This document shows positions 14,415 to 54,096 of a DNA stretch of 64,000 bases, in pieces. Each line of letters starts with the position of its first letter. Positions within the stretch are counted from its first letter, which is position 1. A program made the translations under genes and the position numbers. The stretch is from Dacryopinax spathularia (Eukaryota; Basidiomycota; Dacrymycetes; Dacrymycetales; Dacrymycetaceae), in NCBI GenBank assembly GCA_037974965.1, contig JBBPFI010000001.1, forward strand, positions 2,976,001-3,040,000. Reading direction: 5' to 3'. Under the pieces are notes generated by a model, which did not search any database, was not told where the DNA came from, and saw only the letters and a list, made by a program, of their open reading frames with translations.

Positions 14415-17400
14415 ATGCCGCATCGTCAACGTGCCCCGCACGCGCCTATCCTCTACCCTCACCCTGAGGCCGCTGATGACGAAGATGACTACGCTCCCGG
14501 CGGTGGGGGCACCGAGTCGACCCCTCGCCGTCCCAGGCCAAACACATACGCAAGCACCAGCTCCGTCGGGTCTGTCGCCAGCCACGCTTCTTCCTCCAGC
14601 CTGCGCTCGCAGCGCTCCAGACCGAGGCAGACAGTCTCGTATGGGGCTACGACCGTCATGGGCGGCGGTGGCGTCGGTGCTGCCGGAGGGCTGGGGAGCG
14701 CCGAGTCTGGAGGGTCCAGTTCCGGGAGCGGGAAAGTGGGGAAAGACGGGATGCCGCTGAGCAAGTACCAGAGTGCATTTGCGAGTTTCGCCACGCGGTA
14801 TCGGCGTGATCCCGGAGCGTACGACGAGTACGGCGACGACGGGAGCGGAGGGGGGTTCAGCGCTGCCTGGAATGTGGGAGCGCTGGATGTGGAGAGCGAC
14901 GACGAAGATGGTCGGCCCTCCGGCTTGAGAGCGAGTGCAGGAGGCGTACCGGTTTTTGACAGGTTCGCGGCGGATCTTGGGGAGGGTACGCCTGTGATTC
15001 CGAGGACGGACGAGGAGAGGGAAAGGCTGGAGTGGCAGGCTATGCTCGCTAGTGTCCTGGAGGGGGACGTGCTGAGGATGGAGAAGACCCGGATTGCAAG
15101 TACGTCCGACGAAAGCCGGGACGAGGCCAAGCGTCGGACACTGGACATCTGGCTCGGATTCCGTGCACGCTTGCGAGGTCGGACAGAGGAAGAAGAGCGA
15201 AAGAGGCTCGAGGAGAGAAGAGTGCGAACGGTCCAACCGGCCATTGACGAGATCCTGTCTTTTACGGTCTCTACCGCTCCTGGCGCCCCTGCACCCCTGG
15301 ATCAAGCCCTAGCCCTGCTCGACAAACTGGACGTAGCCGAGTCCCTCTACCCGGACCTGAAAAGCATGCGTGCCGAATACCCCGATTCCGAAAAGCCCGA
15401 GTTCCTCGAACGCACCGCCGCGCTACTCGCATACGTGCGGATGGTCAGTACACTCAGGGCACGAATTCAAGGGATCCAGAAATGGACAGGGAGCGAGACG
15501 ATGGATGTTTGGCAGCGGCATACCTCGCGAGAAGAGCCCGTGAGACGCTCTGGCCCCGCGGGGCACTTGCTGGGTCCGGGCCAGGAGTTGCAGGACGAGA
15601 GCAGTTTTGTGGAGCGCGTGTTGAAGGAAGACTCGATCCAGAAGACTTTGGAGCGCGCTACGCTCGTTACTTCTCATTGGGTGGTCGATAATGCCCGGGA
15701 GACTATGATGACGTACGGCCCGCTCTTCCGAGAAATGCAGCTCCCCGGCGTGGAAAAGGAGCTGGTGGCGCTCATCGCTTTTCCGACCAAACTCATGGAG
15801 GCCACCTTACGGGTGCGACTCGACTACGGCAAGAAAGTGAACGAGCCGAGCGTCCTAGTGGTCGATCAGATGTTGGACGACTTCTCCCTCTCCATCGCCC
15901 TCGCGTGTACGATCAAGCAGGAATACGAAGAGTTCATGCGGCCGGACGAGATGGGCTGGTGGGACCTCCCGAGCTGTATTTCCGACGGGTACGACGAGGT
16001 GTTGCTGGAGGCGCTCAGGTTCCTGTTCAAGCTCATTCATTGGAAGTTGAAGACGGCGAGCAGGATCTACTTTAAGGAGGTGGACGTGTTGGAGGCTCAG
16101 TGGCCGTTGTTTACCCATGTGAGCCTGGTTACGGAGGGGGGGAGTCTGTTGGTTGCGGAACATGTTTGGTGCGTTTCTGCTTCACTTGCACTTGTTTGAA
16201 TCACTGCTGATACGCGTCCTGCCCTGGGCAGCTCGGTGACGAACAAGCTCATGGCGCGCGTTGTCAACTTGTTCGAGGCGCAGTTGAGTCTCCCGGTATA
16301 CAAGCCCTCGCTCGACTCCCGATCCCGCCAATCGCCTCGAAACGTCCTCCATCGCCCGCGTCTCGAGCGCGCCAATGCCGCTCCGATCGTCAACCAGCGC
16401 GAGCGACCAATGGACGAAGCGCAGATCCTAGACTGGTACAACACGGTGCTCGACAGCGTGCGTCTGCGATACCGAAAACTGCAGCGCTTCGGGCGCGTCC
16501 TCACTCAAAGGTTCACGAACGCTGCGGAGTACACGATCGCCCAGCTCCCCGTGGACAGGTTCATCAATGCCCTCGTGAGGACTGATCACTTGCTCGTCTA
16601 CTGCGAGAACTACGAACAGGACGGGATCTACATTATTGCCGATACGTCACTGCGGAACAGGCCGTACATGATACACGATATCCTTCAGCGGACGTTCCAG
16701 CCTGTTGACGCTCTGCCCAAGCAGCACAACGCTACGGATACGAGCGGTGCAGAGGAGGAGGAAGAGGAGGACACGGACAGCACGCCCTATATCCTGCTTA
16801 TTACGCCTGGAGAGCGGTTCGTCTGGACGGGGGACGTGATGGTGTTCGAGACGCCTAAACTCGACTTTGAGCTCACGGAGAAACGCGTCCGGCTCGTAGC
16901 GGATGGACCGCAGCCGCGTCTCGCGAGGGCGAAAGACAGGTTCGGAGAGATAATGCGCAGTATCCGCCCGGAGAGCGTCATGTCCCCCACCAGCACGGAC
17001 GGCGCCGAGCCGAGCATGAACGGAAACGGGGTGGACGGCAGTTTCGATGGGGGCAATGACTACTGTATCATCCCCCAACAAGCGCACCATCCACGTGTCG
17101 ACAGGCAAATGCGGCGCATCACCCGCTCCACCAATCGGCTCGCAGAGGCTATCACCAAGTCCGTCCACAAGGTTTCGGAAACGCTCGATGGCGTCGAGCA
17201 CCGGCAAGAGCTGCTCGCGAACTGGTACGCGTTCGCGGCGGAGAACGGGCAGCAAGCGCAGAAACACATGGACTACACGACGTGGCAGAAGTTTAATCGC
17301 GAGCTTATGAAACTTGCCATCGCGTATGTAAGCTTCATCTGCGACGAGTGCGATCCGACCGATCGGAGAACCTTCCGCTGGGCTGTGAACGCGCTAGAGT

Positions 17401-19078
17401 TTGCCACACTCAGGACGAGGGGGAGCAATATCCTAAACTTGCCTGAGTCGGATTTCAACCTACTGCGGAGCAAGGTCGCGACATGCATGACTCTGCTCAT
17501 AAGCCACTTTGATATTCTCGGAGCTCGCTCGAATTTGGAAGCGTCTCAGCGCGAACAGGAACGGCTCAGTCAGATCAAGCAGAGACAGGAGGAGGCTGAA
17601 GCGAAACGGGAGGACGATGAGATGGTGACTCAACCAGGCACCCAATACGACCCGCTGACGGTCTCGAATTGGGCGAAAGATCGTAGCATTCGTCTAAATC
17701 GGGACGAGAGTTGGTTGCGGCAGCTCCAAGAGCTTGACGCGCGCCGCGCGCAGATGGAGTTTGAGCAGAGGCTCGCCGGCAAAGTCATCAACGAGGAGCG
17801 CCCCGAGGACAAGTCACTCGTCTTCCTCGCTTCATCATCTTCCAATATCGCGCTGCGCTGGCAGCAAGGAAGGTTAATCGGGACTGGCGCTTTCGGCAGC
17901 GTCTACCTCGGCGTCAATCTTGATTCTGGCAGCCTCATGGCCGTCAAGGAAATCAGATTCAGCGACGTGAACAGCTTGACCACGCTATACAAGAACGTGA
18001 AGGACGAGCTGTCCGTTATGGAAATGCTTTCCCACCCGAACATCGTCGAATACTACGGAATCGAGGTGCATCGGGACAAGGTTTACATATTCGAAGAGTA
18101 CTGTCAGGGCGGTAGCTTGGCGAGCTTGCTGGAACATGGCCGAATCGAGGACGAGAGCGTGATTCAGGTGTACACGCTTCAGATGCTCGAAGGTTTGCAG
18201 TATCTTCACTCCAAGGGGGTCGTACACCGCGACATCAAACCAGACAGTAAGTCAGCCCCATTTCGTGTGTGTGTAGCGTCTAATCTCGGATGCAGATATT
18301 CTTCTCGACCATATGGGCGTCATCAAATATGTGGACTTTGGCGCGGCCAAGATCCTCGGTAAAAAGCAAAAGACGCTAGCGAGTCGGAAGCACCAGCACC
18401 CTGTTGGGCATCATTCGCACGAGCGCCCGCATGGCCATGTGCCGCCGGCACCTCCACCCGGCTTCCCGTCTGGGTTCGGTGCGAACAGTCTAACGGGAAC
18501 GCCAATGTACATGTCTCCTGAGGTGATCAAGAACGACCGAAGAGGTCGACAGGGGGCTATGGATATCTGGTCGCTCGGTTGCGTGGTACTCGAAATGTCG
18601 ACAGGGAAGAAGCCGTGGAGCAATCTGGATAACGAATGGTGAGTGACACTCCGCAAATCCGTTTTGGGCGACGCCCCTGATAAGGCTGTGCAGGGCCATT
18701 ATGTTCCACATTGGTGTGGCGGCGAAGCCACCCCCTCTCCCTGATCCCAGCCAGCTGAGCGAACTAGGCATCGACTTTATCCGACGATGTTTAACGATCG
18801 ACCCGATGCACAGGCCTACAGCTGCCGAACTAATGGAGCATCCATGGATTGCGGCGTTCAGGGCAGAGATGCTGGAGTACGAGGAAGAAGAAGCGACAAG
18901 CATGACTACGCCGAGCATGACGACAACGCACACGTCTGTCAGCGAACAATTCGAGCTAGCGACTGTGGCGCACCAGGCACAGCGAATAGAGGAGCAGGAT
19001 GCGGCCGCCATGAAGAGCGAATCGCCTCCTGATATCACGCCGGGCGAATCCGAGGATGGCATCCTCGCCCATCCGTAA
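14415..19078 (+). CDS. SSK2: MAP kinase kinase kinase of the HOG osmostress pathway (SSK2/Wis4 type)
   Basis: Exons 14415-16168, 16232-18246, 18296-18638 and 18694-19078; 1,498 aa. It should phosphorylate the MAPKK (Pbs2-like) upstream of Hog1 after activation by an Ssk1-type response regulator. The first ~150 residues are disordered (Ser/Gly-rich); a large helical regulatory region of about 950 residues follows, with blocks such as TWQKFNRELMKLAIAYVSF that match the Ssk2/Wis4 family. The kinase domain is C-terminal: glycine loop GTGAFGSVY near residue 1135, VAIK-type Lys in MAVKEI near 1158, HRDIKPDN near 1250, DFG near 1268 and an APE-equivalent SPE. The activation segment carries a long His/Pro-rich insert between GAAKILGKK and the TGTPMYMSPE block. 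The tail is acidic. Intron 2 splits the HRDIKPDN codons. Locally duplicated: a decayed copy lies at 36.7-38.8 kb on the other strand. Confidence 0.93.
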
Positions 19079-19889
19079 TTTTGCTCTTGTCATCTCCTCC
19101 ATGAACTATTGTATGTATCAGTACAACATACCCTGAATTTGTAGCAGTATCACTCAATATACACGTTGCCCTCCGGTCCTGTTCGCAGCGTCCAAGCACT
19201 AAAGCAGCGCCTCAATTGCATGGTCAACGGACTGAACGGATTGAATACGCCGTGCTACCGAATTGGGGCGCCGCAAAGGGCCTCGTGTTCAGACAGGGGC
19301 ACCTCGTGCTGATTCCGAATCGCCGAAACTCTGCACCGCGCGGAGCAGTCGTTAGGGTTTTCGGCAGCAGGCAAACCTTTGTCCGGCGCAAGCTGTCCCC
19401 GAGGCGAACAAGGTTGACAGCTGTCAGATCCGGCAAAGAACGATTCTTTCGCAGAATACGTCAGAAGAACTGTCAAGCAAGGGTCTTCTTTGATCGATTC
19501 TCGCGCTTATTCGCCTTCCATCAGAACGCCCCCTATCTGCTGCAGGCTCCATCGAGATGGCCCATCTCGATAACCTACAGCGGAAGCGAACGCGAACCGC
19601 GCCTGAAAAGAGTAGGAGACATCGCGTTATTCCCTTAACGGGAAACTCTAAATGAGTGAGGAGGTCGCGGCTATGGATGGCAGCGGTCCGGTTCCTCGCG
19701 CTCTCAATGATGACTAGTGACCCCCTGAGTCTGCCAGGATGGAGACAAGATGGACGCCGGGGGAACTGGCGCTCCAGGTTAAAAGGCAGAAGGAAACCAG
19801 ATCCTCACCCCCTGAGGTTGTTATAACGACAATCTAGTCTACGCTCATACTCCGTACTACTGCTCCCCGAGTATCATCATCTGACAACA
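19079..19889. promoter_or_regulatory. Spacer upstream of P1, shared with the right duplication arm
   Basis: Between the MAPKKK stop and the P1 start (811 bp). Segments at about 19410-19600 match the reverse complement of about 36230-36430, for example GAACAAGGTTG, TCCGGCAAAGAA, TTCTTTGATCGAT, CGCTTATTCG and GGAAGCGAAC, in the same order. It probably holds the P1 promoter. The 140-codon frame at 19216-19638 is not conserved as a frame in the other copy and is not called a gene. Confidence 0.6.
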
Positions 19890-22301
19890 ATGTCGAGCCA
19901 TTCCGAAAGCGACATGGATCCCATCACTCCTATGGAAGAAGACATCGTCCCATCCCAGGGCGGATTCCCACTCGACAGCGACGATGAGCCCATGGAGGAA
20001 GAGGGGCTCGAACACGATCCCCAGATGGACGTGGACGATGAGGACGAGTCCATGGTGGAGAACGCGCTCGACCCTGAAGTTCAGATGGAGGTCGATACGG
20101 AATTATACGACGACGACGACGACGAGAGCGACATCGAGAAGCCGGAGCTCACCTGCCGCTGCTTGCCCGAGGAACAGCCGGCCGCCGGGCCCGCTGTTGT
20201 CGAGGTACCCTCCCCTAGCTCCTCCGTCTCGAGCTATCACTTTGAGACGGCGTTCAATGACTCCGACGACGACGAGGAGATGGAGCCCGAGCAGTCCAGC
20301 TCGATGTCTGAACCTGTCCCGCAGGTTTCGAACGCACCACCCCTTGCTCCGCAAGCCGTACCGCCTGTGCCACCGCTGTCGCTGCCCACGGGTGAAGAGA
20401 TTCAGCAAGATGCCCAGACGCCACCTCCGGCTCAGCAGGAGGCACCTCCTAGCCCGCCGGCCTTGCAACATGCTGACGAGACGGGGCAAGCTGTTCAAGC
20501 GCCGCCTTCCCCTCAGCGGGAGACACCACCCGCCCCAACGCCGCCTGCCCTGACGCCGCCCGTCCCGACGCCGCCCGTCCCGACGCCGCCCGCCCCGACG
20601 CCGCCCGCCCCGACGCCGCCTGTCGAACAGGAAACGCAACGGGCCCCTTCCCCAGGCCCCAGCCGCACGAGGACGACCAGGAAGCCGGCTAGGCAAGCCA
20701 AGGGCAAGGCCTCGGGTGAGAAGAAGACCAGCACCGTCCCTGGACGGGAAGCGAGGCTTGAACAAGTCGAACAAGCCGCGACAGTCGCCATCCGTCGCTC
20801 CGCTCGGCTGCAAGCCCGCGCTGCTGTCCAGCATGCTCCACCCGCAGCAGTGTCCCGTCCTTCGCTTCCCCGTCCTCAGCGCCGCACGGGGACTTCCGGG
20901 CCCGAAGTCGTCCAAGCCACCGCCTCCAGCTCCAAGGGCAAAGGCAAGATGCCTGCGACGGAGCAAATCGCTCAGACCGAGGATGGTCCCAACCAACTCA
21001 GCCCAGACGCGGTCGACGAGCCCGCACAACCCTCCGCACCAGGCAGAGAGACTTCCCGGAAGTCGAACGTCGCTCCAAAGACAGCTGGTACCAGCAAGGG
21101 CAAGGGCAAGGAAACCGCCACGAAGAAGACGTCTACAGCACGGGCGACTCGGGGAAAGGAGGCGAAGGTGAAGGAGGCCGCCGTCAAGGAGGCCGCCAAG
21201 GCAACGCGTGCCACCCGAGGGCGATCTACCGCCGCTGCCGGCCCTTCAAGGCCTGTGACACGCAGCTCTGCGCGTGCTCTGAAGGAAACGCCGCCCGAAC
21301 CAGAGGAACGAAAAACGAGGGGACGGGGGAGAAGGCCTACCGGGTCGAGAGCGGACGAGGAGGACGCTGCGTCGATCACTCCTGATGAGCCGGCCTGGAT
21401 CCCGGAGATCCCGTTCGAGGATCCGATTCCCAGACGGATGACACGCAGCGCTTCTCGCGCTGCACAGGCGGCGACACAAGAAAAAGAGGAGACGACGGGC
21501 AAAGGGAAAGGGAGGGCGGCTGCCCAACCCACCCCTCGTGCCCCTTCGAGACGCAAGCCTGCTCCGGCCAAGGGCAAGGCGAGCGGGAAGAAGACGCCGG
21601 CGGCTGCCACCAAGCAGCCCGTCTCGCCTCGGAAGTCGACGCGTGCCAACAGGGGCAAGGCGCTCGTGGATCCTACTCCCGGCCCAAGCCAACCCAAGTC
21701 CCTGCGAAATGCCACCGCAAAGAGGGCCGCTGCTGGGCAGCGTGCTGACGAGGAGACGACCGGCGGCAGGAGGGATTCCGCACCCTCCCCATCTACCATT
21801 AGCAACCCCACTCCACCCCTCGACGCAGACGAGGTGGCGGAGCATGGGAATGCAACTGTGGGCGGTGTCCCAGCTCAGCGCACGGAGCTCTCAAACCCCG
21901 ATGGCCTAACGAGTGTGGCCGCACACGAATCGATTGACCAGGCGAACGTGCCTGCAACAGACGTCAACGTGGACACCAGCGTTGACGTCCTTCAGCAGAG
22001 CGGCGAAGGTCCGTCTGCACAGACCATCGAGGCCCCGACGGAGGAGACGGAGCAAGAGGATCCACAAACCGAGGCGGGTGTCGAACAGGAAGAAGCGCCC
22101 CAGCCGGGTCCATTCCGTGTAAGTGCTCCTTGATTCAACGGTCGTCTTTTCCTGTCCGTCCATATCAACTCACAAGCATCTTAGGAGTCGCCACCAGCGG
22201 CCCCCCTTCAGCGGCAGCCTACTGTTTGGGCTCTGGAGGGCAATCCCCCGTGGGAAGCGGTGGGCTGGAACGACGAGGAGATTCACCTCTGGCAGTACTG
22301 A
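19890..22301 (+). CDS. P1: Lys/Ala-rich, acidic-N-terminal nuclear-type protein
   Basis: Two exons, 19890-22118 and 22185-22301, joined by a 66-bp intron (GTAAGT donor, TTAG acceptor), giving 743 + 38 residues (781 aa). I do not recognise a named family. Residues 1-135 are strongly acidic with DDDDDES-type runs and alternating MEVD/MDVD motifs. A Pro-rich segment with PTPPAPTPP repeats follows. The bulk is basic and disordered: RRSARLQARAA, RATRGKEAK, RATRGRS, and SPRKSTRANRGKALVD. The last exon encodes a conserved-looking tail, with GNPPWEAVGWNDEE and final WQY. Charge layout and RATRGR motifs suggest a DNA- or chromatin-associated protein. Paralogues P2 (33846-35945, -) and P3 (41330-45520, -) share the SPRK[ST]TxAxRGKA block. 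P1 and P2 sit in the two arms of an inverted duplication. Confidence 0.85.
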
Positions 22302-22429
22302 GAGGTCGTGGGGAAGGAGAGGATGGAGGATGGGGGAATTGGAATTGGACGACGCCGGCACGCGTACGACATCCACCCGACACGTCGTCGACACCATCTC
22401 AAGACAAACCGACTCAAGACGCTCGACAA

Positions 22430-22730
22430 GCACGCTCCAGCAACAGCCCCACCGAGTGTGCGCTTGCCAAGGAAGACGGCAGTGCACACGGGCGGATCGG
22501 CCTCCCCCCCCTTCATGGCGGTTCTGCTGACCCCACCGCTGAAAGCCTGGGTTGTCAGCAAACCTGGCAAGCATGCCTTCCATGGAGGGGCGGAGGCGAC
22601 CAGTTCGACAGGAGCGGCGGAGCTTCGTGGGTCGGTTTATTGAGGAGAAGGGGAACATCAGTCTCAGTCAACGCGCACCACCGATGTTTGGTGGTGCGTA
22701 CGGCTGGTGTATCCAGACGACGACGATCGG
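22430..22730 (+). repeat. Dispersed repeat copy 1
   Basis: Core landmarks in order: GCCAAGGAAGACGGCAG, TGCTGACCCCACCGCTGAAA, GCCTGGGTT, a CCATGGAGGGGCGGA block, and a terminal hairpin CGCACCACC..GGTGGTGCG. The same order is found at 23130-23430 (+), and inverted at 33290-33600 and 32650-32905. Boundaries are approximate. No coding capacity is credible; it behaves like a small non-autonomous element or a duplicated spacer. Confidence 0.7.
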
Positions 22731-22819
22731 CTGGCAGCACGGAAGCCCGACCTTTGCTGCCTGGTGGTCTGCGCATAGTTCGGTCAAGGCGGTGGGGATC
22801 GGTGGTCGGAGAGGTGGGA

Positions 22820-22837
22820 GGGGGGGGGGGGGGGGGG
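22820..22837 (+). repeat. Poly(G) run, 18 bases
   Basis: Uninterrupted G18 in a purine-rich context. Confidence 0.9.
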
Positions 22838-23129
22838 AAAGGGGCGATGGGAGGATGAGAGGAAGAGGGAGAGGTGGGTAGGCGGGGGTGGGAGCGCGTG
22901 TGCCACAGCTCATGGTCTCGTGGAAGGGGGTTATCCGTACGCCGTATCCATTCTTCATGTTCCCCTTTGCTAACATGCTGAACAGGACTGCGCCATACTG
23001 AGAGGGACGAAGCCAAGCAGCGAAGACTTGCAGCGACCTCGCGAGCCTCACCCACCCCTTCCCCACCGACAAGTCGAAGATACCGACCCAGCAACTCGAT
23101 CGACACGATCTCAACTACCACTCCTAGAC

Positions 23130-23430
23130 GCTTTTTGTTTCCCAGCGACGGCCCTACCGAGTGCAGGTCTGCCAAGGAAGACGGCAGGGCGCACGGGTGG
23201 CTCGCCTCCCACCGCCTCCATGACAGGTCCTGCTGACCCCACCGCTGAAAGCCTGGGTTTGTCAGCGGACCTGGTAAGCATACATTCATGGAGGGGCGGA
23301 GTGAGAGCCTGTTCGACGGGACAGCGACATACTAGGAGAATGGGATTGAGATTTGGAGGGACGGCCTTTCTCGACGCGCACCACCGATGTGGGGTGGTGT
23401 GCTGGACTTGTCTCCCACGATCGGGTATTG
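23130..23430 (+). repeat. Dispersed repeat copy 2
   Basis: Second copy, about 700 bp downstream of copy 1 in the same orientation, with GCCAAGGAAGACGGCAG, CCTGCTGACCCCACCGCTGA, a CATGGAGGGGCGGA block and the hairpin CGCACCACC..GGTGGTG. Spacing between the pair matches that of the inverted pair at 33.5 and 32.8 kb. Confidence 0.7.
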
Positions 23431-23977
23431 GCAAGGTATCGACGGCAACTTCAGTTTCGCAGCCAAGAGCGAAGCATGCGGCAGTTGGTGGGGCCCACCC
23501 GGAGGAGGAGCTGCAGTTGGAGATGCGGTACGGAGAGGGGAGGAGCCTGCCGGTGAGAGCTGAGGAAGGGTGCGTTGTCGTCCATACCGTTTCTTTCCAA
23601 CTTATGCTGACATGTCGTGTAGGAGGATGGAGACGCGGACGATGCGGTACACTGCCCGTGAGGTAGTGTGTATATAGGTTTCTCGACCCAAAAGTACATA
23701 GACTGCCGGATTGTGATAGTTTCGTGAGTGCTGTAATACAAGCAGGTCTTGTATTCTCTTTCATTATTCCGTACATACTGCGCGCCCGGGCCGGCTCCTC
23801 ACAGCGCTACTCACTTAAGACGGCGAGCCATACCCTCACCTGCGACCAGCATTCCATACCCACGCCCTCATGTCCCAGCCTACTCATCCGCGTGTCTATC
23901 TGGGCGTCGAACTCGCTCGACCTAACCAGCACGCGCTGCTCGTCCATCTCCACCACTTCCGCATCCAGCCTCATCCC

Positions 23978-26280: not shown

Positions 26281-26555
26281 GATTACTATACAGATGAAAA
26301 GACAAAGCAGACAACCACCAATAAAACGAGTCGAGAGCGCCCAGCTGCAGGTGATGAACCAGACCAGTCACTGCGAGCAGAAACGATGATGACCCTCTGT
26401 TCGGCGTTTACATTCTGACAATGCCGAGGTGCTTATCGCCGAGTTCTTTACTCGCGCCACCCGACAACGAACAGCGACAGTCGCTCTCCCCGCATCATCA
26501 TCCTCGCCATCTCCCCCAAACAGAGATTAAGTAGATGAATGCTTGAGCAGGGAGG
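26281..26555. promoter_or_regulatory. Bidirectional promoter, DRG2 / MED16
   Basis: 275 bp between two divergent start codons; must serve both housekeeping genes. No clear TATA box. Confidence 0.6.
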
Positions 26556-29500: not shown

Positions 29501-30832
29501 CGAAGAAGAGCCCGAGTAAGACACCGGCTGCTGCTGCTGCTAGGAGTCCGGAGACTGCTTTGACTGGTCCTGGGTCTGGGACTGCTGCTGCGGGGAATGC
29601 TGGTGCCACTGCGGGACCGAATGGAGGACAAGCGGGAGGCGCGCCTGCGGCCAGGTCGGTGGAGCTGGATTGTTCGTCTTGGACTGCGCGGTTTGTCGAG
29701 TACTTGGTTGGGATCTACCGGTACGCTTTGCTAGGGTTTTTTGTTGCATTGAGTGCAGGCTGATGGGGTTTGGTAGGGCCTGCCCCGATCCGGAAATTGC
29801 GAAAGCTTGGGAGACATGCTACGACATTACGAAGCTCGTAGCGTGCGAACGGGCCTTCCTGGTCTCTAGACAAAAGAGGGAGGAGAAGGCGCCTGACGGG
29901 AGCCGGATCGCTTCAGTTATCTATGAGACTAGTGCGTTCCCACTCCTCCCCTGTATCCAGCGCTTCTGATGTGATCGATGTGTAGAGAATACCTGGTACC
30001 TGATCGCTTGGGCCGACTGGTTCCTCGATCTCTGCAGGCGCATCGTTGCGGACGCCATCGTCAAGCGCGCCTGGGAGCTATGGGACGAACAATCCCCTTC
30101 CCCTTCCTCTCCGTCTCCCTCAGACGAGCTCAAGCCATCCCCTACTCCAGCTCGCGTCCCGCCGCCTATCACTCTCCTGCTTGTGCACCCTATGAGCTTG
30201 TCGCTCATTGTGTTTACGCTTAAGTATGTGAGGGAGTTTATTGCGTGGATGGCGAGGATACCGCCTACGAGCGAACAGGCGTATATCGTCCAGTGTTCGC
30301 TGCAGGACGCGGTTGATCGGAGTTTCTTGGACTTGTCGGCGTTGGAAGAAGCGCTGGGCGGGATCCAGGGCCTGTGCAAGGTCCATTTCACCAGTAAGTC
30401 CGAGGGCACCCAATGCCAGAAGCTTTGCTGACCCATAGGACAGACTCGACCAGCCCGCTGAACGATTTCCGGGAAGCCTTCATCTCTGTCTCTGTCCCAA
30501 AGTCGCTTTGCCCCCTCTCGCTCGATATCGCCAAGCTCCTCACCAACCACCCATCGCTGGCGAACAAGATCGCACTCCTGATCTCCCCCTCCGACCTCCT
30601 TCAGTCCATGCTCCTCCCGCCAGCCGACGCAACGCAAGACGAGTCAAAGAAGGACGTCATCACGCGGGTCACCCTCAAGCCCGGTACGCCAGTTCGGACT
30701 TGCTTGCGCTGCGGTGGGAGGACGGAGGCGGGTCGGAGGCCGCAGAGTCTCACGTGGATCTTTTATGAGGAGATGTTTGCCAAACGTTGCGTCTGCGGCG
30801 GGCTGTGGTTCCGGGGTGGACTCAAGGCGTAG
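26556..30832 (+). CDS. MED16: Mediator of RNA polymerase II transcription subunit 16 (Sin4-type)
   Basis: Nine exons: 26556-26695, 26765-27314, 27430-28015, 28093-28437, 28503-28663, 28756-29720, 29777-29931, 29986-30393, 30444-30832; 1,232 aa, all phases close. MED16 belongs to the Mediator tail, which links activators to RNA polymerase II. Evidence: N-terminal motif LGWEDVQCLIDG followed by IVWTKSNTILSAHP, a beta-propeller-like first half interrupted by Pro/Ser/Gly-rich inserts, the helical motif NTWYLIAWADWFLDLCRR, and the family's C-terminal cysteine motif with TCLRCGGR and CVCGGLW (Cys near 1189, 1192, 1218 and 1220). Several introns use TACTGAT- or TGCTGAC-like branch sites. Introns 4 and 3 acceptors/donors (GGAG at 28502, GTGCGG at 28016) are chosen by frame and are the least certain. 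Converges with the HAD phosphatase gene 89 bp downstream. Confidence 0.88.
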
Positions 30833-30921
30833 ATGGTCAATCTTGCTCTTGCATGCTTGGTAGACTCACACTGTACTCTATTCAATCTATTATTTTGCCT
30901 AGATCTATACGCAACGCAGCG

Positions 30922-32038
30922 CTACGGTGACTCATCAATAGTCAGCTCCAATTCCTCCCCATCCCACCTAACATCCACCTTCCTCAAATCCGTAACAATC
31001 CAATCCGGCGCACTGCTCTCCAGCGCCTCCCTTGTATGGCTCGTACACACCGCCAGTACCCTCGACCCAGCCGCATGGCCCGAACGGATCCCGTTCGGCG
31101 CATCCTCAACGACAATACAGTCCTGCGGGTCGAGCTGGCAGGCTTTAGCGCCCGCGAGGTACGGCTCGGGGTGGGGCTTGCCCTTGGAGACTTTGTCGGC
31201 CGTGATGAGCTTGTCGGGGAGGGGGACGCCAGCAGCCTCGAGCGCGTCTGGCGCATAGCCCGAAGTTGCTGCACTCTGATCAGCACGGTACTCTCAATGC
31301 TGGAGATAGATAGGGCGGGCGTACCACTAGTGACAATAGCCCAGATAGGCCGGGAATGCTTTACGGCCGTGATCTCCGCCAGAAGCTGCTTAACGCCCGG
31401 GAGGACGGCGACCCCCTGCCCCTTGCGCGTAGCATCGAGCACCTCATCCTCGAACCTGCGTACTTCGGCCTACACCAACCATCATGTCAGGACAAGCATG
31501 AGCGTGTAAGATAGCAGGGCGCACGTTGAGCTCATCGTCGTCCGTGATGTGGCAGTAGAGCCGTAAGCTGTCGACGAGCCGAGCGCCGTGCGTTGCTGTC
31601 CGTATCCATCTGTCAGCTGTTGTCCCGGTCTGCAAGGGGGGTGAAGGGGCGCACCATCCGCCACAGTCTTAGCGTCAAACCCGTACTTATTGCTGAAGTT
31701 CTTCCATGCCTGAATTGCAGAGTAGACTGGTTAGCAGAGATCCGTCATCGGGGCTGTGACGAGGACGCACCCGGATGACCCCGGGTGTCGAGTCTACCAA
31801 CGTCTGCGGGTGTCCTCAGCCTCTTCCTCTCCCTATGGCGTACGAGGTACATACACCATCCATGTCGAACAGCAGCGCCTTGGTTCGCACTAAGAGATGT
31901 CCAATACGATTCATCAGTGACTGCCAGTTCCTCTCCGTTGGCTCTGCGTACCCTTCACCGGCGTTGTCTGATATCTGATGTCAGCGTCTTTTCCAACCAT
32001 AATACAAGCGAACGCACTTCCTTATGATCTACAGACAT
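30922..32038 (-). CDS. HAD-superfamily sugar/glycerol phosphatase (GPP/DOG type)
   Basis: Eight exons, high to low: 32018-32038, 31952-31967, 31855-31889, 31771-31803, 31655-31709, 31525-31595, 31325-31469, 30922-31268; 240 aa, as expected for the family. Motif I is FDMDGTLVDS near residue 20, the cap domain starts at once after it, motif II is AIVTSATSG, motif III is the Lys in KGKPHPEPY, and motif IV is VVEDAPNG. This combination marks the Gpp1/Gpp2 (glycerol-3-phosphate phosphatase) and Dog1/Dog2 (2-deoxyglucose-6-phosphate phosphatase) group, and the sequence cannot separate the two. If it is the glycerol enzyme it would act at the end of the HOG response, whose MAPKKK lies 12 kb away; that link is speculation. 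The first exon encodes only MSVDHKE; no upstream in-frame alternative seen. Confidence 0.9.
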
Positions 32039-32640
32039 CGGGTGGGCAAATGTACAAGATCAAGAGATGGTCAGAGGGAGACTATGGCAGGTCCGGGTAT
32101 ATGTCGCCGTAGGCGACGTGGACGCGTTTCAGTCGCCCGCAACGATGTCCGACCAGCATACACAGAAGGCGAAACTGCGACATTCGATCGGGGACCATGA
32201 AGGTCGTCCTAGTAAGTCTTGCTCTTGCGCAAGCTTGCGTTGAGAGGTGGGGGGCGCCATATGCAACGTCATTCTCTAACTGAATCAACTTGAATATGAT
32301 ATGTTGTACAACGGCGTAACACTGTCTATGTACTTTGGCGGAGTATATACAAACACGGCTGTGGGCATTTTGCGTGGCCGCCATGTCAAATCTCCCATCA
32401 GCGAGCTTCCTGTGGTAGGAGTTAGCCTAATTGAATAACGAAATATTTGGTCGAACAACGCACAATTATCCGGGCAAACCTATGGGCATCCTCCTCTTTG
32501 CAGCTGCCCAACTCCACACCTCATAAGTGTCCCGCCCCAACACCTTCGCCGAATACCCCCTCCCCCCTCCCCCTCCCACTACGGCTTCATTCAGACTGCC
32601 AGAGCGAACTCGCCCATCGATACCGGTTGATGCTCATCGA
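32039..32640. other. Intergenic, HAD gene promoter side
   Basis: A 100-codon minus-strand frame at 32082-32384 has no recognisable features. Otherwise nothing gene-like; a pyrimidine-rich patch lies near 32555-32585. Confidence 0.4.
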
Positions 32641-32649
32641 CAATGGAGA

Positions 32650-32905
32650 GAAGCCCTGCACACCACCATACATTGGTCGTGCGCGTTGACAATGGCTTGC
32701 TCTCCCAAACCTCATTCCGGTCTCCTAGTTATGTCGCATGTCCCGTCGAACTGGTCGACTCCGCCCCTCCATGGGTGTATACATACCGGTTGGCTGACAA
32801 CTCCGGGCTTTCAGCGGCAGGGTCAGTACAACCGTCCATGGAGGTGGGGGGAGAACGATCCGCCATGTTCACTGCCGTCTTCCTTGGCAAGCTGAACATT
32901 CTATG
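32650..32905 (-). repeat. Dispersed repeat copy 4 (inverted)
   Basis: Reverse-complement match to copies 1 and 2: a CACACCACC..GGTCGTGCG hairpin remnant, GACTCCGCCCCTCCATGG, GGCTTTCAGCGG, then CTGCCGTCTTCCTTGGCAAG at about 32873-32892. It is the outer copy of the right-arm pair. Boundaries approximate. Confidence 0.65.
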
Positions 32906-33289
32906 TGGGTGTCGCGGGACTTCTTAGCGTCTAGGAGTCGTCCTGAGATCATATTGATGAGTTGCTGCTTGGTATCATCACGTTGTCGATGGGTCGGAAT
33001 CGAGGTTCGACCAGCGTGCTGCCTGTTCGTACTTCACCGCTCGAATCCGGGACTTCTTGTCATCCTGACTATGCTTGAGGAGTCCTGGGGGAAGGTCAGG
33101 ACATTATAATTTTGATGTTATGCAAGTGGACGCACGGATGACCTCCTTGACCTTCCCCAGCCCTCTGCTCTGGTCTGTCCTCTCCTCGTTCGGCACCTCT
33201 CATCCACCCCTCCGGCTCATATCTCTGCAACGCGTCCGCACGCCGCTTCATTGAGCTATGCTCGGACAGCATATCTTCGTGGCCTTGGA

Positions 33290-33600
33290 AACCGGTCGAT
33301 CGTGGTCGTGGAGACACCAGCCATGCCGCACCACCAAACATCGGCGATGCGGATTGACGCCACTGGTCATGCCCCTAATCTCAAGCACCTTCTCCTAGTG
33401 TGTCGATTGTCCCATCGAACAGGTCGTGTCTCTGCCCCTTCATGGGAGTATACTTTACCAGGTTGCACCGACAATCCCAGGCTTTCAGCGGTGGGGTCAG
33501 TGCAGCCTGCCATAGAGATGGTGGGAGAACGATCCGCCTTGCGCCCCGGCAGGGCGCAAGGCGGATCGTTCTCCCATTCCTTGGCAGAGGCGCACACGTT
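33290..33600 (-). repeat. Dispersed repeat copy 3 (inverted), interrupted by a palindrome
   Basis: Reverse-complement match: CGCACCACCAAACATCGGCG hairpin remnant, GCCCCTTCATGGGAG, CCCAGGCTTTCAGCGG, then TTCCTTGGCAGAGG. Between the last two landmarks sits a perfect 25-bp inverted repeat absent from the other copies. Confidence 0.68.
33522..33576. repeat. Perfect 25-bp inverted repeat with 5-nt loop
   Basis: Left arm 33522-33546 (starting TGGGAGAACGATCCGCC) and right arm 33552-33576 are exact reverse complements around the loop CGGCA. Confidence 0.95.
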
Positions 33601-33845
33601 AGGTTGTTGCTGGGACTTCATTAGCGTCTAGGAGCGGTCTTGAGGTTGAATCGACCCGCGGTCTTGGTATCTTCAACTTCTGGACGTCGTGCGAAGCTGC
33701 TTCCTCAACCCTCAACCCTCCATTCTCTTATCTCCTCCTCCTGTCCTTTCTGTGAACCCGGCCGCCCTCATTCCTTCGCTCACGCCTGCCTCCCCTTCAA
33801 GTAACGGCCACTCTTCTCCCCCCCTTGCCCCCCCTCCCGGGGGTC

Positions 33846-35945
33846 CTAGTCCTCAATGTCATCATCCGAGTCGATCACTTCGGCCCGACTATGCCGCCAC
33901 TGCCATGGGTGAGGTTGTTGTGGGCCGATGGGTAGACGCTCCCATGAAGGCCCTCCATGCGATGCGGCTGCACTGATCCAGGTAGGTGCGCTTTGCTGGG
34001 CAGGCCGTTCAGTCTCGATGTCGTCCAGCTGGTGTTCGCTCTCCTCCGGCGGGTAGCTCAGCCGATCAAGCCAATCCCCGCCGTACGGAGGAGCGACTGG
34101 CTCAGTCATCGCATGATGCTGTGCTTCCTGCTCCTCCTGCTGACCCGGTGCTTGAACTCCGTTGTCGACATCACCAATCGTGCCTGGCCCAAGCGCGTCC
34201 TCCTCATCATCCGAGTCGCCCTCGGCCACTTGTTCCCTGTGGTCTGGCTCCAGGGTTGCACTGCTAGCGGGGGGAGGTGGGACGGGATCCGCGTTGGCAA
34301 TGTCGGAATGCCGTACCTCCTCGGCTTCAGCCGGAGGGGCCTGAGTGGCAGTGGTGGTCTGCAACGTCGTGGCCTTCTTTGTGGGAGGCTTTCGGGCAGG
34401 CTTGCGTCGGCTCGGGGCGGGAGAGGGATCCACCAGCGCTTTGCCCCTCTTTGCACCTGTCGACTTCCGCGGAGAGGCAGGCTGCTTGGTAGCAGCAGCG
34501 GGAGTCTTCTTGCCGGTACCCTTTGCCTTTCGTGGAGCCGACTTGGGTGCTGGAGCACTTTGAGACGTGCCCTGGGCTGCTGCGGTCCTTGCAGCTGTCG
34601 CCTTTGCTTGTCCCGTTGTCGGCTTAGGCGGCTCAGGATGGGGAGCAGTTTCCTTTGCAGCACGAGTAGCGCTGCGAGTCATGCGCTTGATGATATCGGC
34701 CGGCTTAGCAGCAGCGTCCAGACCAGGGACATGCTCCTGGACTTTCGTCGAAGCGCGACCTCCTTTGCCCCTTGTCTTCGGCTCCTCCGGCTCGGGTTCA
34801 CTCGCCTTTGCGCCCCGTGTAGCACGGCGCGCCGCACGCTCCGTCCTGGCGGCCTCCTTGACAGCGGCCTCCTTAGCTTTTGCCTCCTTGCCCGGAGCTG
34901 TGCGCGCGATAGACGTCTTCTTGCCGGCTGATTCCTTGCGGGTTGCCTTAGAAGCTGGCTTCCGCTTCTGGCTCGCCTTTGTTGTAGGTGCGGAAGGACG
35001 GGCCGCGGGTTTCTCGACGGTGTCGGATTTGAGTGCGGGAGATGGCGCGGTCTGCGCCTGAATGACTGGTGCGACCTTCCTGGACGGCTTGCCTTTGCCC
35101 TTCGAGGCGCCGTTGGCATCTTGGGCTCCTTTGGTGGGACCGGAGGCACCGGTTTGGCCTGGAGCAACTGGATGGGTAGCGGTGGGGACGGTTGATGCTG
35201 CAGCTTGTTGCGCGGCGACGCGCGCTTGCAGCCGAGCCGAACGGCGGACTGCGGGCGCGGCGGCTTGTTTGACTTTCTTGTCCTTCACTTTCCGTGCACG
35301 GGCGGTGCTTGGCTTCTTTCCGGCTGCAGGGTTGGCCTTGGTCTGCTTTTCCGGTTTGCTGGTGACCGGTGGGGCGCGGTGACTGGTGGACAGCGGCTGA
35401 ATGGTTTCCTCTGGCGACGCAGGGGCTGGCGTTAGGGGCGATGGCGACTTCGGTGCAGGCGATACATCTTGGTGAGCTGAGGGCGGCGCTTGCGCAACGT
35501 GCTGAACGGGTTGCGAAGACCCGGCGCTCTGCGAAGGAGCAGGCGCCTCGTCAAATGAGATTTCGTCGAGGCATTTGAGGGGATAATCTGATATGGATTC
35601 GTTGATTTCCCCAACCTGATACGAATGGGGGAATGCCGTTGGAGTGATCTGTTGTGCCGTGGTAGAAATTCCGCTCGTCAAGTCGGGTATGTCAACGTCG
35701 TCGTCGTCGTCGTCGTCGTCGACGTCGATGGGGTCATCCGGCTCCATATCAGCCGGAAGAGGCTGATCCATCTCGACGTCATCAACCTCGTCGTGAGCCG
35801 TCATGAGATTGTCCATCTCGATGTCGTCGACTTCTGTCTGCATGTTAGATGGTGACGGGGCGGCCAGCGATTGCGGCTCACCGCCATGAGAGGTTGGCAT
35901 GCTTTCAAGCAAGCGCTCAAGGTTGTTTGCCGAGTTTGTCGACAT
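33846..35945 (-). CDS. P2: paralogue of P1 in the right duplication arm
   Basis: Single uninterrupted frame of 699 aa from ATG at 35945 to TAG. Layout equals P1: an acidic N-terminal third (DIEMD and DVEMD motifs and a run of nine Asp), a Pro/Ser segment, then a basic disordered region with VRRSARLQARVA, ATRGAKAS, and a block KKTPAAATKQPASPRKST that is nearly identical to P1 (KKTPAAATKQPVSPRKST). The C terminus keeps the P1 tail pattern (HGGPSWE..., WQW), then adds DSDDDIED. P1 has a 66-bp intron before its tail; here the corresponding region is read without a clear intron. No known domain. The frame is intact although the neighbouring MAPKKK copy is decayed, which suggests selection on P2 but not on the kinase copy. 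Confidence 0.82.
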   Translation of the reverse strand: MSTNSANNLERLLESMPTSHGGEPQSLAAPSPSNMQTEVDDIEMDNLMTAHDEVDDVEMDQPLPADMEPDDPIDVDDDDDDDDVDIPDLTSGISTTAQQITPTAFPHSYQVGEINESISDYPLKCLDEISFDEAPAPSQSAGSSQPVQHVAQAPPSAHQDVSPAPKSPSPLTPAPASPEETIQPLSTSHRAPPVTSKPEKQTKANPAAGKKPSTARARKVKDKKVKQAAAPAVRRSARLQARVAAQQAAASTVPTATHPVAPGQTGASGPTKGAQDANGASKGKGKPSRKVAPVIQAQTAPSPALKSDTVEKPAARPSAPTTKASQKRKPASKATRKESAGKKTSIARTAPGKEAKAKEAAVKEAARTERAARRATRGAKASEPEPEEPKTRGKGGRASTKVQEHVPGLDAAAKPADIIKRMTRSATRAAKETAPHPEPPKPTTGQAKATAARTAAAQGTSQSAPAPKSAPRKAKGTGKKTPAAATKQPASPRKSTGAKRGKALVDPSPAPSRRKPARKPPTKKATTLQTTTATQAPPAEAEEVRHSDIANADPVPPPPASSATLEPDHREQVAEGDSDDEEDALGPGTIGDVDNGVQAPGQQEEQEAQHHAMTEPVAPPYGGDWLDRLSYPPEESEHQLDDIETERPAQQSAPTWISAAASHGGPSWERLPIGPQQPHPWQWRHSRAEVIDSDDDIED

Positions 35946-36742
35946 ACTTTGTGATTCGAGTTGAGTAGAAATGTGTGGGGACAGAGAGCACTAGGCGTTT
36001 TTCGAAAGAGCCTCAGAAGGATAAGGCCGGAGAGCGGCAAGGTACTTATAAGAAACGGAAGCGCCTCCTCCCACCCTGCCTACGCCGCGAGGCCCACGAA
36101 CAATGGGAGGAACCACCAATTGAGTTCATGCAGTAATCTGATGCTTGGCGCGGAAGGGCGAACGGGACTTCTATGATTCCCAATTAAGGAACCGTTCTGA
36201 CTGCACTAGCGCCTCCACGATCAGATCGTGACAGCATCCAGTTCTTACGGCTGGCACCAGTTCGCTTCCACTGAAAGTTGTCCGAGGATGTGTTATCGAG
36301 ATCCAGCGTGCCGATCGAGCGTGACCCGAATAAGCGCTGCTATCGATCAAAGAAGGAATCCACATTTTCCCCAGAATTTCTTCAAGAAGACTTCTTTGCC
36401 GGAAGCTGATTCACTGCCAACCTTGTTCCCGCTTGACAGGAGAAGACATGCCGAAAACCCTATCCACTGCTCCGCGTGGTAAAAGGTTTCGGGGTCTTGT
36501 GACCCGAGGCACTGGGTCCTGTCACCCGGATACACAGGGCAGTTCGATGGGCACGCTACTCTACTCTAGCGCGCCCCACAACCGAGCGTGACAGCTCCGA
36601 GAGGATGACTAGAGTTTGCCAGCGTGCGTGCTAACAGATAATCACTCCCCCTTGTCGGGAAAGTGGACCAGATTCATACCGCAAGTACAGTGTATTGCAC
36701 AGTGATACGTTGTAACTGGTTACCAGTTACAACGTATCACTG
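35946..36742. promoter_or_regulatory. Spacer upstream of P2, homologous to the P1 upstream spacer
   Basis: 797 bp, almost the same length as the P1 spacer (811 bp). Matches in the same order when reverse-complemented. It ends in a perfect hairpin (see separate entry). Confidence 0.6.
36700..36742. repeat. Perfect 20-bp inverted repeat with 3-nt loop
   Basis: Left arm CAGTGATACGTTGTAACTGG at 36700-36719, loop TTA, right arm the exact reverse complement at 36723-36742; a partial further copy (GTTACTGGTTGTAACC) follows. It sits where the MAPKKK copy meets the P2 upstream spacer. Confidence 0.95.
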
Positions 36743-38800
36743 TTACTGGTTGTAACCCCGGTACAAAACGGTTGGTAAAGGGGTAATAACGGGAACAATA
36801 CTGATGTGGAAGGATACCACCTTCCAATGGGTAGCGCCGCTCGCCCGCTCCTCAATTGGCTGTGCCTGGTGCACCACAGGGACCAGCTGACCTAGTCCTC
36901 TGCGTGATGTCGCCTTCTCGTCGTACTCGAGCACCTAGACCCCAACGCCGCAGCGCATGGATACTGCATTACTTCGGGAGCTGTAAATGGCCGCATTGGG
37001 TTGATGGTCCTTGGAATCAGGGAGAGGAGGCGCCCTCGCAGCCACACCCAATACGGAGCGTGATGGTCCGGCACAGCCTTATCAGGGGCGTTGCCCGAAG
37101 CGAATTCGGGGCTCGCCATAGGCATTCCATGTCTTCCATGTCGGTCGACATTTCAAGTACGACTCAACCGGGTAATTGGATGGTTACAGCGGCGGTGTAT
37201 TCTTGACCGCTTCCGAACAGAGGCGCCCGCGCATCTTCATTCGCATCAAACCATCCACACCAAACCAAGAGGGGAAGTGGGGTGGAGGAAGCGGTTGGAG
37301 ATGGTACATGCTCATGCCATGTCGTCTCGCGTGCTCGTGCATCCTTGCTAGCGTATTTGTGCTTTCCCGAGGATCCTGGTGGCGCCATAAGTCAAGACGG
37401 CGTAAAGGGCCTATCCCAATCTAGTATTTTAGTATTACTTCTACAGTAAATCGAGTGAATTGCAATAAACCCTTTTTTTAGGGAAATCTGCAGCTAAATC
37501 CTATATTTATAAGCTACAACGGCAGCGAGATATTGGAGGATGGAGACGCCGCCAGTGGTAATGACTCTTCGGCGAGCGGATCGAGTCTCAGGGGCCGATG
37601 GTCCCTCTGAACTCAATCCGTGCGAGATGGGCTTGGAGCTCTTGTTGCTGTCACAACCAGCTCTCGTCTTGATTCGGACAGAGCGTAAGCGGATCCTGTG
37701 GGTCGCCGGTTTGAGTCACCAGCTCGGCAACTTCCTGTCGCTGCTTGAATCATCCGTTACTCTTCGCGCCAGGAACCTTCCGCATTTGATCAGGTTCGGA
37801 GAACATCCAATTGACTCACGAACAGAGTCATGCCTTTGTAGACTCACCTCCGCAGCAGGTCGACATCCGATTCCGGTCATCCAACGAACCTTCTCCCCCT
37901 CGTTATGAGCGTGCCTGTGCATGCGTACCCCAGCAGAAGGTTCCCCGATCGGCCGGATCGCTCTTTTCGCAGATGAAGCTTATGCGGACGATCGCGCGTT
38001 TCACAAGCTCGCGAACAAAGTTCTGCCACGTCGCTGTAATCCATGCCGTTGTAGGTTCGTTCGCTCTTCCCCGCCGCGAACGCGTGGACCGTGGCAGTTC
38101 GCGAGTAACTCCGGCCGAGGCGGTACTTGATGCCTTTCGGCGAAACTCTGTGAATGGATTTGGGACGGCCTTGGCAGCGGATTGATGGAGCGGACGTGCA
38201 TCGCAGTTGGCGGACGGCGCGAGGATGATGTGCTTAGTGGGCAATACTGTAATCACCATTACCATCCTCAAAACGCTTGCACCCCGTTTCCGCGAACTGT
38301 TCGCTCCCCGTCGTTCGAACTCGAAGAGACGGATGTTCTTCGTGTTCATAGTGCGCAGTCTCGTACCAGTCGCGCCCTTAGAGGGCATTCATCGTCCGCT
38401 GGCGCTGGCGCTGGCGCTGGTCCGCAAGTGGGTCGCCGTTCGCGCGCTCAAGACGACGTCGACGCAGTTACGGTATGCGGCGGCATGGGAAACGGAATTC
38501 GGCGAGCGGCCTCTACCTCTTCTAAAGGAGGTTGACAATGCGTGATATTATTAGGGTGCTTGCGACCGAGCTGCAGTACACGAATTAGCAATGATTTAGA
38601 GGTGCAGATGAGCCGAACGCACCAGAGATGCCATCCTACCGTGACAATCAGCCTCTCTCCTTCCTTGACAAGATCCCGCCCCGTAAATCGCTCTCCAAAA
38701 CGCCCACCTCCCTACAACAGCTCCGAGTCTCCATCTTCAACACGCCGTGAGAAGGTTTCAGCAACAGACTGAGCACTTCAGCATAGCCGCGAGGAGTACG
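36743..38800 (-). pseudogene. Decayed copy of the SSK2-type MAPKKK
   Basis: Minus-strand segments match the functional gene at 14415-19078 in the same order. From the far end: an intron-1 region near 38590-38640 (AATCATTGCTAATTCGTG against AATCACTGCTGATACGCG); TWQNFVRELVKRAIVRISF near 37950-38035 against TWQKFNRELMKLAIAYVSF; a GTGACTCAA..GACGAGAGCTGGTTG segment near 37620-37760; the DFG/activation-loop start near 37390; a GAAATGTCGAC segment near 37145; a MHRPTAAE-equivalent near 36985; and MLEYDEKATS near 36905-36934 against MLEYEEEEATS. Frames shift repeatedly, stops occur, and the kinase N-lobe is missing, replaced by an AT-rich insert at about 37424-37520. Retention of an intron shows DNA-level duplication, not a retrocopy. 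The left limit is approximate; similarity fades above 38.8 kb. Confidence 0.85.
37424..37520. other. AT-rich insert inside the MAPKKK copy
   Basis: About 97 bp of AT-rich sequence (TAGTATTTTAGTATTAC, CCCTTTTTTTAGG, TATATTTATAAGC), unlike the G+C-rich surroundings, at the place where the kinase N-lobe should be. Confidence 0.55.
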
Positions 38801-53726: not shown

Positions 53727-54096
53727 AGCAAACCAGTGAGCGCGTACGGCCGGTCGCGTTGAGGTCAACAGTCATTATATCTGTAAGCACATATTCCAGC
53801 AAGATGCAGCACGGCATAATTGGAAGGCCGATAACTCGTTATGGACGCCATCGAGCTCGTGGGATACAGGAAGGAAGCGCGCGAAAGAAGCCTCGTCGAG
53901 CGGAACAACGCAGAATTCGGTGCCAGCACGAGTATCGTCAAGACAGGGATCAGGACGGATGGCTTATCTGGCGCCAATGGGAATGTCTGGAGTAAGTATT
54001 CTGCTATCCGGTTTCATTAGATCGACCGATATCGGATCTCTGCTCACACGGGTATAGTGACCTCTAGGAACATACCGCGCCCCGAACCCTCCCTCT
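53727..54096. promoter_or_regulatory. Amidase 1 promoter / amidase 2 3' flank
   Basis: 370 bp between the tandem amidases. A short upstream frame beginning MTVDLNATG overlaps the amidase 1 start in another frame; it may be a chance ORF. Confidence 0.4.

Follow-up and report, generated by a model that had tools for sequence, protein, structure and literature searches.

The window is a 64,000-nt stretch of the Dacryopinax spathularia genome (GCA_037974965.1, JBBPFI010000001.1:2,976,001-3,040,000, forward strand). Its left part carries, on the plus strand, a MAPKKK gene of the Ssk2/MEKK4 type (14439..19078, start uncertain within 14.4-15.0 kb) that is apparently intact, shares 46-60% identity with five relatives (tblastn) and has, in the second of its large frames, a Pkinase match (PF00069, 2e-33). 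This gene is followed by the P1 gene (19890..22301, +; in our model exon 1 spans 19890-22118, the intron 22119-22184, and exon 2 22185-22301), by two copies of a structured RNA defined by alignment and folding, A1 (core 22416..22631, +) and A2 (core 23120..23339, +), and by a 3'-end-like element, TGTATATA ... AAAGTACATAGAC (23669..23703, +; motif search). The right part reads in the same order on the minus strand, with a kinase copy (36844..38741, -; blastn chain), the P2 gene (33846..35945, -; an open reading frame of 699 aa), the RNA copies B1 (core 33391..33635, -) and B2 (core 32721..32938, -), and the same TGTATATA-type element (32324..32351, -; motif search and blastn). The enclosed segment contains the DRG (PF16897) and MED16 (PF20719) genes named in the first-pass annotation, and the HAD phosphatase also named there was not found among the subset of its frames that was scanned.

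In place of a dot-plot, the window was compared with its own reverse complement by blastn, which gave a collinear inverted diagonal; the minus-strand pieces form one arm-to-arm chain, bearing out the inverted segmental duplication that had been proposed. The chain pairs ~16.05-23.7 kb on the left (+) with ~38.74-32.3 kb on the right (-), and includes 17021-17590/38292-37733 (68.9% identity), 21551-21728/34548-34371 (76.1%) and 23062-23415/32993-32645 (74.7%). Pieces with E < 1e-3 range from 68.9 to 88.9% identity, and the top two score 204 and 187 bits, compared to a maximum of 35.6 bits in 50 dinucleotide shuffles. The chain is secure from 17021/38292 to 23415/32645; its end pieces beyond these limits, 16046-16094/38741-38693 (35.6 bits) and 23691-23703/32336-32324 (24.7 bits), fall in line with it but taken alone do not rise above noise. 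In a tblastx self-comparison of the window, most rows were chance matches and E-values were pooled, so the result was set aside. Since the arms are at 69-89% identity, the duplication is old, and this divergence, together with a P1/P2 dS of 1.03-1.25, excludes an assembly artefact. We conclude from the sequence that this old inverted duplication is real and that the duplicated block is composed of the 3' two-thirds of the MAPKKK gene, P, RNA, and RNA.

The left kinase-P spacer is 811 bp, as annotated (kinase TAA at 19076-19078, P1 ATG at 19890); the 797 bp given for the right one is approximate only, since no stop codon can be assigned to the decayed kinase copy. A non-coding block upstream of P1 (19323..19513, +) is matched upstream of P2 (36327..36492, -; blastn), with 19323-19366 at 84% (49.1 bits) and two more collinear pieces, at 80% and 86%, at noise level (33.7 and 35.6 bits). 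A genome search with 36300-36520 returned only the self-match and missed even the left block. A palindrome lies at 36699-36743.

The right kinase copy is a pseudogene with many frameshifts that lacks the first kinase-domain exon (blastn and tblastn comparison). In the kinase alignment (left 17021-17762), 20 of the 25 gaps shift the frame, and stop codons occur within both matched pieces. Because homology begins inside the left gene, the right copy was 5'-truncated from the start; the earlier picture, in which the duplication is old, the kinase copy has decayed and P2 is open, is supported, except that it was not a whole gene that decayed. The right arm is the derived one, and its kinase copy is dead. 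P1 and P2 share 255 identical residues among 617 aligned, and the synonymous-site comparison suggested for them gave the dS quoted above, with dN of 0.37-0.52 and dN/dS of 0.35-0.42 (NG86); we conclude that P2 stayed open under constraint. Inverted segmental duplications with a partial gene copy likewise have collinear inverted arms flanking sequence without counterpart, and a truncated copy that becomes a pseudogene, whereas here the P gene and the structured-RNA pair appear to stay constrained.

The elements first annotated as repeats are real and paired in both arms, but each is a copy of a structured RNA, and the genome has another array of this RNA at a second locus. The four copies in the arms are non-coding and ~216-245 nt each; a coding origin was rejected: in the sense frames, the longest M-started stretch per core is 20-77 codons, each copy taken separately. 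The CCGCTGAAAGCC motif starts at 22536 and 23242 on the left (706 bp between) and at 33491 and 32817 on the minus strand (674 bp between), in agreement with the annotated spacings of ~700 and ~670 bp. A correspondence of A1 with B1 and A2 with B2 is favored by the flanks and not by the cores, so that the copies show no clean history of this kind.

The predicted common fold is closed by a long stem and includes a hairpin whose loop reads AAGGAAGAC, a long hairpin whose apex CCGCUGAAAGCC never varies, and a short GUUCGA hairpin. All seven RNA copies have the same apex CCGCTGAAAGCC, and six of them the same hairpin GCCAAGGAAGACGGC. Fold z-scores range from -3.1 to -9.2 across the seven cores (100 shuffles each), and a 261-nt B2 piece gives -2.07 (4/200 shuffles as good). 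Single folds depart from the consensus in hairpin d-e of B2, in C2, which has no helix f, and in B1, where a 55-bp near-perfect palindrome replaces hairpin b.

The second locus, 2.5 Mb away, sits behind a JmjC gene; its three copies (the C copies) lie in tandem and share the architecture of the A and B copies, but their helix letters differ. These copies keep 82, 81, and 82 of the 82 pairs of the C3 fold. Six pairs vary: two are full swaps (GC to AU and UA to AU), wobble preserves three, and one is broken, so that full swaps occur even though the copies are near-identical. Motif searches found seven copies in 29.2 Mb. A2 used as a DNA query missed the C copies, which suggests that still more diverged copies may exist. 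Two further candidates were judged chance matches: a viral-contig match (L018) to a 19-base core word, whose flanks are unlike the RNA, and an exact 15-base match at C6:1891474, which scored 13.2 bits with the model.

The covariation evidence comes from paralogues of one genome, with structures taken from the same copies (the A/B consensus for A/B, C3 for the C copies) and no test fully modelling phylogeny; on that basis, 93.0% of 256 cells are paired in the A/B consensus, compared to 41.2-47.3% after sliding by 1-3 columns. Changes on both sides occur in 9 of 64 A/B pairs (0-4 when slid, 4.1 when shuffled), and standard pairs fill 248 of 268 cells, against a null mean of 196.3 and maximum of 220 (0/5000 as high). 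Substitution in A/B is 11.8% in paired cells and 21.8% in unpaired ones. In A/B, double compensations by themselves are only moderately unusual (10 vs 4.83; 102/5000 as high) and the pair-type count is not unusual (22 vs 22.0); G-U pairs exceed A-C mismatches only twofold (20 vs 10). PMC11234323 also cautions that some paralogues may be pseudogenes. Compensating mutations appear to maintain the base-pairing of the RNA copies, and are already visible in seven paralogues of which some are near-identical and some strongly diverged.

Template-switch correction of DNA hairpins could produce compensation without RNA selection if the copies were a foldback or satellite-like DNA element. The tandem arrays would fit this explanation, as would the B1 palindrome, which resembles a template switch, the other palindrome mentioned above, and the antisense strand, predicted to fold more stably than the sense strand in 4/4 A/B copies (0/3 C copies). 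Nevertheless, such correction is expected to give perfect palindromes, not interrupted helices and fixed loops, and the retained wobble pairs, the conserved apex and hairpin, and the small number of copies found make this origin very improbable.

No Rfam family fits the RNA. RNase P and MRP RNAs are defined by a P4 pseudoknot formed from conserved regions I and V, and SRP RNA by helix 8 loops binding SRP54. No Rfam row for SRP, RNase P, MRP, or U3 appeared with lax filters, the limit being E 10 for the A/B regions and E 5 for the C array. Nine rows of the B region were rejected, six of them overlapping the B1 palindrome (best mir-3180, E 0.0054, 32 bits where the gathering score is 99). UGUNR is absent from four of seven copies (first 110 nt of the core, whose 5' end is approximate), and in six of seven the 200 nt that follow the core contain no T4 run. 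A telomerase template of at least 8 nt occurs in 0/7 copies (core with flanks of 100 nt on its 5' side and 200 nt on its 3' side, TTAGGG repeat assumed), and the C box RUGAUGA of C/D box snoRNAs is absent from six and lies upstream of the core in B2.

We consider it improbable that the RNA is a divergent known essential RNA missed by Rfam in Basidiomycota, most plausibly that of SRP, non-canonical in the phylum, or of RNase MRP. Its size and multi-helix fold are compatible with this, and a genome search with Rfam Fungi_SRP and Metazoa_SRP found no SRP RNA (26/268 and 26/957 first-look candidates scored, with models that may miss basidiomycete SRP RNA). However, seven diverged arrayed copies would be unusual, and the missing Rfam rows, the absence of UGUNR from four copies and that of T4 runs from six also argue against it. 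Basidiomycete SRP RNAs are reported to escape computational searches (PMC4605306), which favors this explanation and makes them similar to the present RNA as large structured RNAs missed by standard models; the latter differs in its arrayed copies, in lacking a conserved UGUNR in the 5' core, and in having no U tract in 6/7 copies, whereas yeast SRP RNA is described as terminating in one (PMC4176351).

The best reading is that the copies, set against Rfam models by sequence, represent a new structured-RNA family. Literature searches within open-licence PMC text listed no paper that fits this RNA or the duplication, judged by title and start of abstract. Fungal intergenic and UTR RNA structures (PMC8216456, PMC5640933) are likewise compensated and lie beside protein genes, whereas the present units are ~216-245 nt long and in tandem arrays, the sequences being compared via Rfam alone. 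Of these two studies, the 2021 screen is described as covering 1371 genomes, Ascomycota only, suggesting that little of the basidiomycete RNA repertoire has been explored, and the main text of the 2017 study has no word starting with basidiomyc. The small ncRNA inventory of Pleurotus ostreatus, with 254 ncRNAs reported (PMC5040776), also concerns a basidiomycete and could include this RNA.

All three arrays begin shortly after a same-strand stop codon, 114 nt past P1, 210 nt past P2, and 206 nt past JmjC, but only two of these placements are independent, because A and B stem from one duplication. Downstream of the last copy, TGTATATA occurs on the array strand in 3/3 arrays; the 13-base AAAGTACATAGAC match between the arms alone has E 3.5. 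TGTATRTA occurs four times in the window (0.58 expected; matched in 1/100 shuffles) and in L029 once (0.09 expected; matched in 17/200), and it is absent between stop codon and array in all three cases. The copies might instead be independent RNA genes, each driven from a promoter of its own, whose position 3' of P and JmjC is a coincidence, which we regard as plausible without favoring it: the two loci have unrelated upstream genes, and the copies can be aligned in part ahead of the core, but the shared strand, the spacing of 114-210 nt, and the position of these motifs speak against it.

The arrays are probably cotranscribed with the upstream gene. We consider likely the whole account of an old duplication, a dead kinase copy, a kept P-RNA-RNA unit, and a new RNA probably transcribed from the promoter of the upstream gene. 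Selection in the right arm would have kept the P-RNA-RNA unit, and the 3' part of the transcript would be long and structured and would end near TGTATATA, each copy in it possibly forming a protein-binding domain. Such domains could act as a 3'-UTR control element of the P and JmjC mRNAs or, alternatively, as a structural RNA released from the upstream-gene transcript. If transcribed, this is a new RNA family with tandem arrays and a recurrent neighbourhood. The case is also an example of how differential decay after a segmental duplication reveals which linked features matter.

More tentatively, and with considerable doubt, we suggest an undescribed class of large multi-helix RNAs that form tandem 3' modules in transcripts of nuclear proteins (P, JmjC demethylase-like) and an RNP with the Lys/Arg-rich P, the RNA-plus-protein unit having been duplicated and kept while the linked kinase died. 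The P1 protein is Lys/Arg-rich, and disordered by appearance only. No Pfam family matches its exon-1 frame, and neither P1 residues 345-665 nor P0003 (words from the first 500 residues), both low-complexity queries, had a homologue among the candidates listed. P had been annotated as a pair; P1 and P2 are indeed related, but a third P-related open frame of 1396 aa lies at 41330..45520 on the same minus strand as P2, with a blastn match between 34372-34499 and 42309-42436 (69.5%, E 9e-8).

The repeat pairs behind P1 and P2 are best described, from their sequence, as a predicted structured RNA. Two copies per arm had been proposed by the first-pass annotation and are indeed present, but they are not mere repeats, since A1, A2, B1 and B2 share one compensated fold. 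In a 64-pair structure over the four aligned copies, 93.0% of 256 cells are paired, dropping to 41.2-47.3% when one side is slid by 1-3 columns. Changes on both sides occur in 9 pairs, compared to 0-4 in the slid alignments and a mean of 4.1 after letter shuffling (1/500 as high); the pair-type count shows nothing unusual. When the substitutions of each copy were randomly moved among same-base columns (5000 trials), the 248 standard cells of 268 observed exceeded both the null mean of 196.3 and the maximum of 220, and the 10 double compensations compare with a null mean of 4.83 (102/5000 as high). These tests took in the four A/B copies without the C copies, and they are biased towards the structure, since it was derived from those very copies. 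In B1, hairpin b is replaced by a 55-bp palindrome (33522-33576, 52/55 letters matching the reverse complement), whose right half is native and left half its inverse, as from a template switch. By eye, a splice-donor-like GTAAG, GTAAAG or GTATGT lies just 3' of helix d in A2, B1 and B2 (three of seven copies) and is missing from A1 and the C copies.

The same RNA is found in a second array outside the window. With at most 3 mismatches, a 24-base core pattern occurs at seven places in the genome, four in the window and three at contig positions 504743-505735, and its reversed form at none. Against a model of the four window copies, the three new ones reach 53.7-54.6 bits (E roughly 1e-9). A 20-base pattern matches perfectly at exactly seven places, its two-mismatch rows numbering 6 versus 7 in the control, and a DNA search of the genome with a C copy gave no additional place. 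A similar search with A2 did not recover the C copies, which makes seven a lower bound. Whole helices are replaced in the C copies (hairpin c is CCCCUCUAAGU/ACUUAUGAGGGG, versus CCUCCAUGG/CCAUGGAGG in B2), and the apex CCGCUGAAAGCC is invariant in 7/7 copies. Of the 82 pairs in the C3 fold, 82, 81 and 82 stand in C1, C2 and C3, the six varying pairs comprising two complete swaps, three kept via wobble, and one broken in C2.

All seven cores are more stable than their shuffle means (z -3.1 to -9.2, 100 shuffles each). A separately folded piece of B2 reaches only -2.07, and among the single folds B2 deviates from the consensus at hairpin d-e, C2 at helix f and B1 at hairpin b. The antisense strand gives the more stable fold in 4/4 A/B copies, and fold stability, as modelled, does not determine the RNA strand.

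In lax Rfam searches up to E 10, the A region had three rows and the B region had nine, of which six fall on the B1 palindrome; none attained a gathering score. The C array had no row up to E 5. Motif tests on the seven copies failed for SRP RNA, telomerase RNA and C/D snoRNA. Rfam Fungi_SRP and Metazoa_SRP found no SRP RNA in the genome, few candidates being scored. Basidiomycete SRP RNAs are reported to be non-canonical (PMC4605306), so we rate an SRP identity as unlikely rather than rejected. A fungal structured-RNA screen (PMC8216456) covers Ascomycota genomes only, and the main text of PMC5640933 has no word starting "basidiomyc". On this evidence, the predicted RNA family carried by the duplication appears real and is without an Rfam match.

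The core starts 114 nt past the P1 stop, 210 nt past the P2 stop and, in the second array, 206 nt past the stop of a JmjC-domain gene (PF02373, 2.7e-17), always on the same strand. TGTATRTA, which may mark transcript ends, occurs four times in the window (0.58 expected) and once in the second-array piece (0.09 expected). One form, TGTATATA, lies downstream of all three arrays, another, TGTATGTA, lies 31 nt past the left kinase stop, and the fourth window match is at 31848 (-). The placement between stop and motif, seen in two independent settings, points to each array as the probable closing part of a transcript that also covers the upstream gene.

The inverted segmental duplication itself was recovered as annotated. 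Self-comparison of the window (contig positions 2976001-3040000; genome 29.2 Mb in 24 contigs) by blastn joins the arms in one collinear inverted chain, above noise from 17021/38292 to 23415/32645, and weak collinear pieces stretch it to 16046/38741 and 23703/32324. The top two pieces score 204 and 187 bits, against a maximum of 35.6 bits over 50 shuffles. Identity is 68.9-88.9% in pieces with E < 1e-3, which rules out the assembly duplicate for which a check had been advised. Taken alone, such a duplication is ordinary.

The right kinase copy has decayed, as claimed, but did not originate as a whole gene. In tblastn, alignments of five relatives span the left gene, starting at about 14.4-15.0 kb and reaching 19.06 kb, but the right copy is matched in short pieces only, inside 38034-37523. 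Right-arm DNA homology starts within the gene (left equivalent about 16046, at the latest 17021), indicating that the copy lacked the first part of the gene from the outset. Chain pieces 17761/37610 and 18334/37393 are separated by 572 bp on the left versus 216 bp on the right, and the match of the first kinase-domain exon (17862-18245) sits inside this gap. Between left 17021-17762 and the right copy, 20 of 25 alignment gaps are frame-shifting, and stops are present within the matched pieces. At the expected kinase-core site, 37400-37524 is AT-rich with a CCCTAAAAAAAGGG hairpin, possibly a small insertion. The ten organism-named rows among at least 120 kinase relatives listed are all mushroom-forming fungi, including Serpula, Rickenella, Agaricus and Coprinopsis.

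P1 (19890-22301, +; 781 aa, second exon placed at 22185-22301 in our own model) and P2 (33846-35945, -; 699 aa) are Lys/Arg-rich and, by appearance only, disordered. Nei-Gojobori estimates, rough because the proteins are repetitive, are dS 1.25 and dN 0.52 over all 617 aligned codons, and dS 1.03 and dN 0.37 over 303 codons of well-aligned blocks. With dN below dS, P2 was constrained during the decay of the linked kinase, in agreement with the annotation that it stayed open. Genome searches with P1 and P2 found one further relative, a frame at 41330-45520. The non-coding block 5' of P is partly retained (19323-19366 at 84%, two other pieces at noise level). The pseudokinase-P2 spacer holds a 45-bp palindrome (36699-36743, 44/45).

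The flanks of the RNA copies pair A1 with B1 (3' score 56, versus 22-29 in the other five pairs, A2-B2 being 29) and A2 with B2 (5' score 46, A1-B1 28, others 14-21). The RNA was therefore probably already present as a tandem pair when the segment was duplicated. The core tree, by contrast, places A2, B1 and B2 together (93/97, just below the tool's strong-support mark) and A1 on the C side, a grouping that we read as conversion between tandem copies; without C the quartet count is star-like (13/11/11). Elsewhere in the window, the tandem duplication at 3426-6106 is young (87-89%) and includes a GGGAGAC array that has expanded, and the amidase genes (PF01425) at 51906-55943 form an older tandem pair.
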